This document shows, one piece after another, positions 1,296 to 4,182 of a stretch of DNA of 34,815 nucleotides. The stretch comes from Fimbriimonadaceae bacterium (GTDB taxonomy: Bacteria; Armatimonadota; Fimbriimonadia; Fimbriimonadales; Fimbriimonadaceae): the NCBI GenBank assembly GCA_024710805.1, contig JANJUB010000051.1:1-34815 (forward strand), in the 5' to 3' direction. The translations under genes were made by a program, and so were the position numbers. Below the pieces are notes generated by a model. That model was not told the origin of the DNA. It worked only from the letters and a program-made list of their open reading frames with translations, and searched no databases. Numbering within the stretch: the stretch's first letter is position 1; every line of letters begins with the position of its first letter.

Positions 1296-1595
1296 CTAAA
1301 GCTCGGGGGTTACTTCGACACGAATACCGATGGTGGCGATAATTTCCGCCGCCGCGCAGCACTCTTCCTCATTACCTACGTGTACGACCGAGTGCCCCAA
1401 ATGGTCGATCTCCCAGGTCTCAATCCATGCCTCTTCCGGTGAGCAACTCGTGGCAATGATCAAGATCGTTATGACCTCTTCGTACGTATTGGTCTCGTTG
1501 TTGAAGACCGTCACCAACCAGCGTTCGCCGCGGTTCTCATCCGCGGTGAACTCTTCCGGTCGAATCTCGATGGAGGGGTTTACGACTCGTCCCAC
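1296..1595 (-). CDS. ClpS-like adaptor protein, second of a tandem pair
   Basis: This is a 99-residue protein if started at the GTG at 1595. No ATG exists in the conserved part, and the GTG overlaps the end of the upstream ClpS-like gene by 16 bases, implying translational coupling. It shows the ClpS fold signature: W-V-VFNNE-N-EEV near residues 26-41, then EEA-IE-WE and a short tail of beta-type residues. ClpS normally delivers N-degron substrates to ClpA/ClpC. Aligned with E. coli ClpS, the substrate-amino-group residues N34-D35-D36 are N32-N33-E34 here, and the conserved His66 position is Asp64 (the next residue is His65). The classic N-degron pocket is therefore doubly altered. It may bind other clients or only the Clp ATPase. 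Family assignment is by pattern. Confidence 0.7.
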   Translation of the reverse strand: MGRVVNPSIEIRPEEFTADENRGERWLVTVFNNETNTYEEVITILIIATSCSPEEAWIETWEIDHLGHSVVHVGNEEECCAAAEIIATIGIRVEVTPEL

Positions 1596-1870
1596 TCTCG
1601 CTGCACCACGGTCCTCACCCCGATCGTCGAGATCATAGCAGCGACAACCTCGCACTCGGTTCGATCGGCAAAGTGGCACGGTGCCTTGCCGTACGTGTGG
1701 GCCTCCCATGCCTCGATGAACGCCTCTTCGGCCATGCAGCCCGTCGCCTTCATGAGGACGCCGATGACCTCATCGAACGAGTTGAACTCGTTATTGAAGA
1801 TCATCACCATCCAACGGCCGGTGCCGTTGGTCGACTCGATGACTTCAGGAAACAGGATTGGACGACTCAT
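1580..1870 (-). CDS. ClpS-like adaptor protein, first of a tandem pair
   Basis: This 96-residue protein has the ClpS core: RWMVMIFNNEFNSFDEVI (residues 19-36), an EEA-containing helix, and AHTYGKA (57-63), which matches the VHYQGKA segment of E. coli ClpS. The spacing from the first Asn (26) to His58 is 32 residues, as between Asn34 and His66 in E. coli. The two pocket aspartates (35, 36) are replaced by Asn27 and Glu28. Established role of the family: adaptor handing N-degron proteins to a Clp ATPase. Whether this member still binds N-degrons is uncertain. It lies 35 bases after the aldehyde dehydrogenase gene and overlaps the next ClpS-like gene by 16 bases, so the three may be cotranscribed. 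Confidence 0.75.
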   Translation of the reverse strand: MSRPILFPEVIESTNGTGRWMVMIFNNEFNSFDEVIGVLMKATGCMAEEAFIEAWEAHTYGKAPCHFADRTECEVVAAMISTIGVRTVVQREWDES

Positions 1871-1905: not shown

Positions 1906-4182
1906 TCACTCACCGTAGGGCACCCACACGTTCTTCACTTGAGTACATCGGCGGAGCAATTCGTCGACCTGTGGGTCACGCCAATCCGGTTCGCTGCCGG
2001 TCCACGTCTGCTTCAGATTCGCCGTCGAACGTAACTCGACGTCCCTCCGCTCGGCATCGCTCCCGAAAGCAAAAATTGCATCGACGCCATCGTGATCCGC
2101 CAGCGTGGCCACGAGTTCCTCACGCAAACCGGTGACGATGTTCACGACCCCTGCCGGGATGTCGCTCGCCTCCAAGACTCGGTAGAGCGCTGCGGCAGGC
2201 AGCGGGTTCGTCTCGCTTGGAATCAGGACCATCCCGTTCCCCATACCGATGCCGGCCGCGATCAGAGTCACCAGGGCGAGGAGAGGCGCGTGGTCGGGCA
2301 GGATCGCAGCGACAACCCCGATCGGTTCGTTCTGTGTGTAAGCCATCCCTCGGCTGGGCACAGCGTGGACCCGCCCTTCGAACTTGTCCACCCGGCCCGC
2401 GATCCGAAACACGGCTTCCGTTGCGGCTTCGATCTCCTCAAGAGAAGCTCCGAAGACGTCAGCCCGCTGTAGGTTCTCCGCCAAGTAGTACAGCACTTGC
2501 GACCGCAGATAGGCGGTTGACTTCTGCCAACCGGGCTGAGCGGAGCGTGCCGCCTCGACCGCGTTGCGGATGTCTTTGCGGTTGCCGCGGGCGATTTCGT
2601 GCCCGTGGATCACCAGGCTGTATCCTGAATCGGGGCGCACCTGCTTTCCGCCGATGTAAAGCTTGTGTGTGCGATCGATGAGGTCGCTAGCGGCCACAGG
2701 GTCGCCGGCTGCTTCGAACTGGCGCTTGACGTGGTGCCGTGGCTTCACATACTCGTGTAGGCCCTCGAGCCCGCCTTCACGCCCAAAGCCGCTCTCGCGA
2801 TAACCACCAAAGCCCGAGGACGCATCAAACTGGTTCGTGCAGTTAATCCACACCGTGCCCGCCTTCACCCGAGAGGCGATATCGAATGCGAGATTGAGGT
2901 TCTCCGACCACACGCTCGCCGCTAGACCATAAACCGTGTTGTTCGCGAGGTCGACGGCCTCCGCCGGCGTTCGGAAGGGCATGGCCACCAGCACCGGGCC
3001 AAAGATCTCCTCTTGCGCAACCGTCGAGGCCGGGCTCACGTTGGTCAACAACGTCGGCGGGTAGTACCAACCTTCTGAGGGGCATGCGCCGGCCTGAAAT
3101 AGTTCGGCTCCCTCATTCACCCCCACTGTCACGAGTTCTTGGATGCGATCTCGCTGCACGGGAGCGACGATTGCGCCGATGTCCACGGCCTTGTCCAGCG
3201 GATCACCAACCCGCAAAGTCTGCATGCGGCGTCGCACCTTGTTCAGCACGACATCTGCGACCGACTCTTGCACCAGCAAGCGCGATCCCGCGCAGCACAC
3301 CTGTCCCTGGTTGAACCAGATCGCGTCGACCAAACCCTCGACTGCCCCATCGAGATCGGCGTCATCAAAGATGATGAACGGCGACTTGCCCCCGAGTTCA
3401 AGCGAAAGCTTCTTCCCCGTTCCGGCCGTCGCCCGCCGAATGATCCGGCCGACCTCGGTTGAACCGGTGAAGGCGATCTTGTCGATGTCGGGATGCTCGA
3501 CGATGGCTTGCCCCGTCCTCCCATCGCCGGTGACGATGTTGACGACGCCGGCAGGCAGGCCAACCTCGGCGCAGATTTCGGCGAACAGCAACGCAGTCAG
3601 CGGCGTGAATTCGGCTGGCTTCATCACCACCGTGTTTCCGAGCGCGATGGCCGGGGCAATCTTCCAGGCAAGCATCAGCAGGGGGAAGTTCCACGGGATG
3701 ATTTGCCCGCAAACGCCTACCGGCTCGTGATCGGGAAGCATGTCCGTGACCCCTGCATGGTAGTAAAAGTGACGTGCCACGAGCGGAATGTCGAGGTCCC
3801 GAGTCTCACGGATAGGTTTTCCGTTATTTAGGGACTCTAATACAGCGAACAAACGGGAGTGCTTCTGAATATGGCGCGCGATCGCGTAAAGGTAGCGCCC
3901 CCGCTCGATGCCCGCCAACGCCGCCCACTTGGGTTGGGCTTCACGTGCGGCCCGAACCGCCCGATCCACTAAGTCGTCGCTAGCCTGGGCGACGGTGGCA
4001 ATGGCTTTCCCGGTGCCGGGCGAAAAAACCTCGAACTGGTCTTCCACCGCGTGCCACGCGCCGTCGATGTACACGCCGAACCGTCGGCTACGATCGTCGA
4101 GCCAAGCCTGCGCGAGCTTTGGGTCCTCGGGTGCGGGGCCGTAGGGCAAGGTGTCGTACAACTCGGAGACGGTCACTTCCAT
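1906..4182 (-). CDS. Two-domain aldehyde dehydrogenase, ALDH16-like
   Basis: This 758-residue NAD(P)-dependent aldehyde dehydrogenase carries an extra C-terminal half-domain. Residues 1 to about 490 form a complete ALDH: PWNFPLLML, the cofactor loop FTGSTEVG, the general base Glu262 in LELGGKSP and the nucleophile Cys296 in GQVCCAGSR. The Glu-Cys spacing of 34 equals that of human ALDH2. Residues from about 505 to the end form a second ALDH-like segment with a coenzyme-domain pattern (NEPIGVVAAILPDHAPLLAL, IPAGVVNIVTG) but no catalytic cysteine region. This architecture matches the ALDH16 family, in which bacterial members keep the cysteine and the C-terminal domain is non-catalytic. The substrate cannot be read from sequence. 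There is no ribosome binding site; TACAAT abuts the ATG and lies 6 bases before an in-frame GTG at codon 3, so the true start may be that GTG. Confidence 0.92.
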   Translation of the reverse strand: MEVTVSELYDTLPYGPAPEDPKLAQAWLDDRSRRFGVYIDGAWHAVEDQFEVFSPGTGKAIATVAQASDDLVDRAVRAAREAQPKWAALAGIERGRYLYAIARHIQKHSRLFAVLESLNNGKPIRETRDLDIPLVARHFYYHAGVTDMLPDHEPVGVCGQIIPWNFPLLMLAWKIAPAIALGNTVVMKPAEFTPLTALLFAEICAEVGLPAGVVNIVTGDGRTGQAIVEHPDIDKIAFTGSTEVGRIIRRATAGTGKKLSLELGGKSPFIIFDDADLDGAVEGLVDAIWFNQGQVCCAGSRLLVQESVADVVLNKVRRRMQTLRVGDPLDKAVDIGAIVAPVQRDRIQELVTVGVNEGAELFQAGACPSEGWYYPPTLLTNVSPASTVAQEEIFGPVLVAMPFRTPAEAVDLANNTVYGLAASVWSENLNLAFDIASRVKAGTVWINCTNQFDASSGFGGYRESGFGREGGLEGLHEYVKPRHHVKRQFEAAGDPVAASDLIDRTHKLYIGGKQVRPDSGYSLVIHGHEIARGNRKDIRNAVEAARSAQPGWQKSTAYLRSQVLYYLAENLQRADVFGASLEEIEAATEAVFRIAGRVDKFEGRVHAVPSRGMAYTQNEPIGVVAAILPDHAPLLALVTLIAAGIGMGNGMVLIPSETNPLPAAALYRVLEASDIPAGVVNIVTGLREELVATLADHDGVDAIFAFGSDAERRDVELRSTANLKQTWTGSEPDWRDPQVDELLRRCTQVKNVWVPYGE

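Follow-up and report, generated by a model that had tools for sequence, protein, structure and literature searches.

Within the 34,815 nucleotides analysed here, to which we refer as the window, two genes of the ClpS family lie side by side on the minus strand. The 5' gene of the pair (positions 1580 to 1870) starts with ATG and encodes a protein of 96 amino acids, paralog A; the 3' gene (positions 1296 to 1595) starts with GTG and encodes paralog B with 99 amino acids. The two reading frames overlap by exactly 16 nucleotides (1580 to 1595, minus strand), an arrangement already recognized in an earlier note on this DNA, and the overlap includes the TAA stop codon of A and the GTG start codon of B. 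Although the frame of B is open further upstream, no start codon other than the GTG at position 1595 lies close to where A ends. The pair is preceded by a gene for an ALDH16-like double aldehyde dehydrogenase (1906 to 4182, minus strand), which is matched in two stretches by the Pfam model Aldedh. Downstream, the same strand encodes two secreted proteins that resemble each other and have C-termini of the PEP-CTERM type (49-579 and 680-1261).

Both small proteins are members of the ClpS family. They score 40.1 bits (A) and 42.2 bits (B) with Pfam PF02617 (ClpS), the curated cut-off of which is 23, so that the profile search that the earlier note had named as a means of placing them outside the family sets both of them inside. 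The proteins are free-standing, the ClpS match is the only one along their 96-99 amino acids, and the combination of a UBR box with a RING is lacking. The NCBIfam ClpS equivalogs require 86 to 160 bits, whereas the best score attained is 21 bits, and A and B therefore have to be regarded as divergent ClpS proteins and not as these named equivalogs. The suggested structural prediction yielded ClpS folds in both cases: AlphaFold2 models of the two, based on 58 and 74 related sequences, attained a pLDDT of 88 each and exhibit the ClpS core topology with an N-terminal stretch of low confidence. About 18-24 residues at the N-terminus of each paralog form a disordered extension. Plant, mycobacterial, Caulobacter, malarial and E. 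coli ClpS are the solved structures that match the models best (Z about 12-15), the closest superposition having an rmsd of about 1.1 Å across about 76 residues, and are followed by the N-domain of yeast Ubr1 and by L7/L12 (Z about 10). A and B share 44% identity across the core, in agreement with the earlier view of the two as similar duplicates.

In the draft genome from which the window originates (3.25 Mb), A and B are the sole ClpS genes and a further copy with the canonical N-D-D motif, for which the earlier note had proposed to search, is thus not present there. The conservation of the pair was surveyed in a phylum sample of 201 genomes, 34 of which stem from the window's family. Two ClpS matches, side by side and in the order A then B, occur in 31 of these 34; the exceptions are one genome with B only (G128) and two reduced genomes of 1.5 Mb with A only (G181 and G185). 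The existence of A-only and B-only genomes implies that the paralogs are not strictly interdependent. In an order-wide survey, at least two ClpS genes were present in 74 of the 80 family genomes having any. A second family of the order (f42) possesses the same tandem pair, and a third (f43) contains a single ordinary ClpS with N-D-D and His66 in the five genomes read. A sixth genome of the latter family (G275) encodes a proteobacteria-like ClpS (locus L175 on G275:C36; motif NDDYTTMDFVV; 109 bits to Pfam) that could possibly stem from transfer or contamination.

The order A then B is kept in all of 96 tandem loci. Genes of the B type were encountered in the genome collection only in records consistent with Armatimonadota, where Fimbriimonadales have B next to A and genomes of the Chthonomonadales type have it as a stand-alone gene; in the examples of the latter that were inspected (G007, G131), an ordinary second ClpS sits elsewhere in the genome. 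In seven Chthonomonadales-type loci (L067, L070, L071, L147, L150, L158 and L166) a GlnD-like gene follows the stand-alone clpS-B gene, often with overlapping frames. The neighbours of stand-alone B genes (GlnD-, SbcC- and ScpA/ScpB-like by eye) were considered as a clue to function and set aside as uninformative housekeeping genes. Single records deviate in other ways: clpS-A is split across two frames in L128, where it is either broken or mis-sequenced, a third, divergent ClpS-like gene is located away from the pair in L180 (G230), and record JADZEW010000001.1 (L087), entitled 'Methanoregulaceae archaeon isolate SJ84', carries the clpS pair of the window's genus and looks wrongly named.

In a tree of 195 proteins, the 74 A sequences form one clade (SH-aLRT 100), the ordinary Armatimonadota ClpS proteins form another (99), and B makes up the remainder. 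Identity between A and B amounts to 44-46% as compared to 54-59% within the groups. For close pairs for which dN/dS could be computed, values of 0.003-0.08 were obtained for both genes, indicating strong purifying selection. Gene order, conservation, the pocket differences described below and selection together argue for an old, selected duplication that is neither a recent accident nor due to chance.

The first start codon of B in the 96 tandem loci lies most commonly 13 nucleotides before the end of the A stop codon, followed in frequency by distances of 8 and 16 nucleotides. These positions suggest that the two genes are likely to be translationally coupled, and the overlapping frames would then provide for balanced synthesis of both proteins. 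The ALDH16-like gene is indeed located directly upstream of the pair in the window, as the earlier note had pointed out; as a conserved link the adjacency fails, since a survey of neighbours found it only in the window and in loci of the same genus. The aldehyde dehydrogenase was therefore rejected as a functional partner and is probably unrelated to the clpS pair. A gene for a protein of about 770 amino acids with multiple membrane spans is found near the pair in 73 of the 96 tandem loci, nearly always directly abutting A. The protein, YfhO-like by eye, has no match in Pfam or NCBIfam; an example is found in L058 (G173:C2:472852-475248). In the genome containing the window, the homolog resides on another contig (G000:C10). 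The ancestral operon may have consisted of this membrane protein gene, clpS-A and clpS-B.

In Caulobacter ClpS, the α-amino group of the substrate is held via N47, D49 and H79, corresponding to positions 34, 36 and 66 of the E. coli protein (PMC12493166). The numbering used here is that of an E. coli ClpS reference identical to PDB 1mbu. Alignment to this reference bears out that both paralogs have N34-N35-E36 instead of N-D-D (N26-N27-E28 of A, codons at 1787 to 1795; N32-N33-E34 of B, codons at 1494 to 1502; both minus strand) and that His66 is retained in A (His58, codon at 1697 to 1699, minus strand) and replaced by Asp only in B (Asp64, codon at 1404 to 1406, minus strand). Paralog A accordingly presents N, E and H at the three cup positions, a classical N34/His66 cup combined with N35-E36, and paralog B presents N, E and D, accompanied by Tyr40 as gatekeeper, T62 and I65. 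The functional conclusions previously attached to these residues have to be revised. N-D-D as such had been taken as the grip on the amino group; as the gripping positions are 34, 36 and 66 (PMC12493166), N35 entails no loss of a gripping acid, and N34 and the acid at 36 are both retained. Asp66 had contributed to the suggestion that the pair may read a different degron or act as a partner and a regulator; by itself it does not imply a protein that reads no N-degrons, the same residue being present in human UBR1 and UBR2 and in Leptospira ClpS1 (PMC12493166). UBR N-domains read type-2 N-degrons and recognize bulky hydrophobic residues, Ile among them (PMC4447728, PMC11668491). Judged by these analogs, Asp66 most likely keeps amino-group binding rather than abolishing it; its natural occurrence in UBR proteins and Leptospira ClpS1 also means that it is no bar to ClpS membership. 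Four ordinary ClpS proteins with N-D-(D/E) from other Armatimonadota (L004, L011, L013 and L032) likewise contain Asp66, and one of them, L032, reads FNDEEHTF...TVD, closely resembling UBR2.

Among 74 different A proteins, N34 is present in 70, Asp or Glu at position 36 in 67 and His66 in 66, with N34 and His66 occurring together in 65. The 93 non-redundant B orthologs contain an acid at position 36 in 87 cases and N35, N38 and V43 without exception. Their residues at 34 and 66 are N/D in 54 proteins, D/H in 21, D/D in 16 and N/H in two, and an additional carboxylate is consequently found in the cup, at 66 or 34, in 91 of the 93. Twelve independent contrasts at position 66 were extracted from a tree calculated without columns 34 and 66: nine of them oppose N34/D66 to D34/H66, none runs in the opposite sense and three are unchanged at position 34. 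The 9:0 ratio corresponds to p 0.004 on the single best tree, in which one pair only is situated on strongly supported branches, and to a Fisher p of 5e-9 without correction for the tree. Because the tree is poorly resolved, the exchange of one carboxylate between positions 34 and 66 in B is suggestive rather than proven. Chemically it would be sensible, as both positions meet at one nitrogen.

Beyond the cup, B resembles UBR1 in the wall of its pocket. The B protein of the window has the residues of UBR1 at positions 34, 36, 40, 43, 62, 65 and 66 (among them Y40, V43, T62, I65 and D66) and thereby displays the complete pattern of a UBR1-like type-2 pocket (aromatic residue at 40, V43, T/A62, I/V65, D66). 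At positions 40, 62, 65 and 66, B proteins match UBR1 on average at 2.8 of the four sites and E. coli ClpS at 0.5; the respective values are 0.7 and 1.3 for A and 0.3 and 2.0 for other ClpS proteins. Searches of solved structures with single sequences and profiles also placed the N-domains of human UBR1 and UBR2 at the top for both paralogs, and the B profile hit UBR2 with an E value of 8e-8 and UBR1 with 1e-7. Overall UBR likeness was nevertheless rejected as a trait specific for the pair, since a control profile of ordinary Armatimonadota ClpS matches UBR2 more strongly (6.7e-11, with 2.6e-12 for E. coli ClpS); only the pocket wall of B is retained as distinctive.

N35 prevails in both paralogs, occurring in 65 of 74 A and 93 of 93 B proteins, as opposed to Asp35 in 25 and Cys in six of the 32 other ClpS proteins sampled from the phylum. 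This position belongs to the specificity-pocket list of Caulobacter ClpS (PMC12493166). In a simulation of M. tuberculosis ClpS, Asp35 is termed universally conserved and modelled as a strong contact to Lys85 of ClpC1 (PMC6274998). The contact residue Lys85 is retained in the aligned Armatimonadota ClpC proteins. The N-domains of M. tuberculosis ClpC1 and E. coli ClpA served as rulers in this alignment. Compensation in ClpC for the lost Asp35 was rejected, as the aligned proteins show no sign of co-evolution. With Lys85 kept, the change from D35 to N35 may weaken or alter docking to ClpC. ClpC is the expected partner: the double-ring Clp ATPases stay under the cut-off for ClpA, those read resemble ClpC and ClpB and not true ClpA, and ClpC as well as ClpP are present in the genome.

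A tie of either paralog to aminoacyl transferases was rejected. The L/F-tRNA-protein transferase Aat is encoded in 31 of 35 tested genomes with A or B, in each of the 11 other relatives tested that possess ClpS and in none of four ClpS-less relatives. It is missing, however, from both genomes of the window's genus (G000, G198), which keep both clpS genes, and from the two A-only genomes, and is present in the B-only genome. Neither paralog is thus simply the partner of Aat. An ATE-type transferase is absent from the window's family, and in the window's organism, with neither Aat nor ATE, degrons would have to arise by proteolytic cleavage or through a transferase of another kind.

We consider it somewhat more likely than not that A and B form a two-adaptor N-degron module for ClpCP, in which the pair probably splits the reading of 'destroy me' tags. 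Both proteins would dock on the N-domain of ClpC and hand over proteins according to their first residue. A would act as the classical reader with N34, the acid at 36 and His66. B would read amino termini by means of an acidic cup, the extra carboxylate of which is positioned at 66, as in UBR1/UBR2 and Leptospira ClpS1, or at 34, as in mycobacterial ClpS, and its UBR1-like wall (Y40, V43, T/A62, I/V65) might, as in UBR, accept β-branched residues such as Ile. Hydrophobic N-degrons would then be divided between A and B, following the precedent of cyanobacterial ClpS1 and ClpS2. In favour of this reading are ClpS membership and fold, the conserved tandem pair under purifying selection, the pocket counts with the 34/66 exchange, the UBR1-like wall of B, the presence of Aat in most ClpS-bearing and its absence from ClpS-less relatives tested, the retained Lys85 of ClpC, the presence of ClpP, and the cyanobacterial, Leptospira and M. 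smegmatis precedents. The loss of Aat from the window's genus in spite of both genes being kept counts against such a module, as do the few genomes with a single paralog (G181, G185 and G128), the weak support of the one tree behind the contrasts, and N35, through which both paralogs lose an acid that the simulation called universal and assigned to a strong contact with ClpC (PMC6274998).

Three other explanations have to be weighed. It appears unlikely that B is a regulator bound to ClpC, where it would compete with A or gate it without carrying a substrate, as an anti-adaptor beside an adaptor. Coupling in tandem with A and the departure of Asp66 from the classical cup fit such a role, as does Leptospira ClpS1, a protein of similar type with Asp66 and Tyr40, which binds ClpA and inhibits its ATPase, although ClpS2 does likewise (PMC12493166). 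A degenerate pocket would be expected to drift, however, whereas N35, N38 and V43 are invariant in B and the carboxylate at 34 or 66 is nearly so, and some genomes have B but no A, namely G128 and those of the Chthonomonadales type. We regard as rather improbable that the two are near-equivalent copies kept for dosage with pockets that differ by neutral drift. Both cup solutions are indeed known in other organisms and either copy has been lost in some genomes, but A and B remain distinct across dozens of genera, as the identities and the separate A clade attest, and the exchange between 34 and 66 is non-random. Least probable is that the more acidic cup and the pocket wall unlike that of E. 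coli equip B for another class of N-termini such as basic or small residues, for UBR1 and UBR2 N-domains with Asp66 read bulky hydrophobics and leave basic residues to a separate UBR box (PMC4447728, PMC11668491), D34 is also the residue found in mycobacterial ClpS, of which the M. smegmatis protein was solved with Phe- and Trp-dipeptides according to the titles of the matched structures, and the side-chain pocket of B is still hydrophobic (Y40, V43, I/V65).

Should the two-adaptor module be real, the phylum Armatimonadota would be added to those with a built-in two-reader N-degron system. A more far-reaching version would make B a free-standing reader of the UBR1 type that holds the amino group by a movable carboxylate at 34 or 66, and would give this coupled N-recognin pair a broader code than that of E. 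coli, for instance by inclusion of Ile. It is put forward here as a tentative and rather doubtful extension; if true, the N-degron code of Armatimonadota would exceed that of E. coli. Reading by the ClpS pocket is usually studied via engineered mutants of the E. coli or Caulobacter protein. Here, some 90 natural B proteins swap one carboxylate between two positions beside a classical A in the same cell. They offer a way to ask if Asp66, which bacterial variants have in common with the UBR N-domain of eukaryotes, determines specificity or serves only to hold the amino group. ClpS paralog pairs are already known; an order-wide, overlapping tandem of a classical ClpS and a UBR-like one that swaps its carboxylate was not found described in the literature searched, which included no paper combining 'Armatimonadetes' and 'ClpS'.

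With E. coli and Caulobacter ClpS (PF02617) the pair shares fold, size, N-terminal extension, N34 and the acid at 36, and A in addition His66; it differs from them by N35 in place of D35, by replacement of the Met40 gatekeeper and of Met62, by Asp66 in B and by the overlapping tandem genes. Cyanobacteria likewise contain two ClpS paralogs in one cell, which serve ClpC and differ in their preferences, F, Y and W being the residues bound by ClpS1 and L, F, Y, V and I those bound by ClpS2 (PMC7966870); they belong to a different phylum, and the likeness concerns the number of paralogs, their partner and their preferences. Mycobacterial ClpS combines D34 with His66 and N38 (PMC6274998), which is the state of 21 of the 93 B proteins; unlike B it retains D35 and has P36, and a single ClpS alone is treated in that work. 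ClpS1 from Leptospira interrogans resembles B in that His66 is replaced by Asp and the gatekeeper Met40 by Tyr (PMC12493166), whereas its gene is not adjacent to clpS2, the cup reads D30-D31-N32 instead of N-N-E and the partner studied was ClpA. The N-domain of human UBR1 and UBR2 is part of a large E3 ligase and retains D35, in contrast to the free adaptor B, with which it nevertheless has Asp66 and, in the case of UBR1, also the residues of the pocket wall in common.
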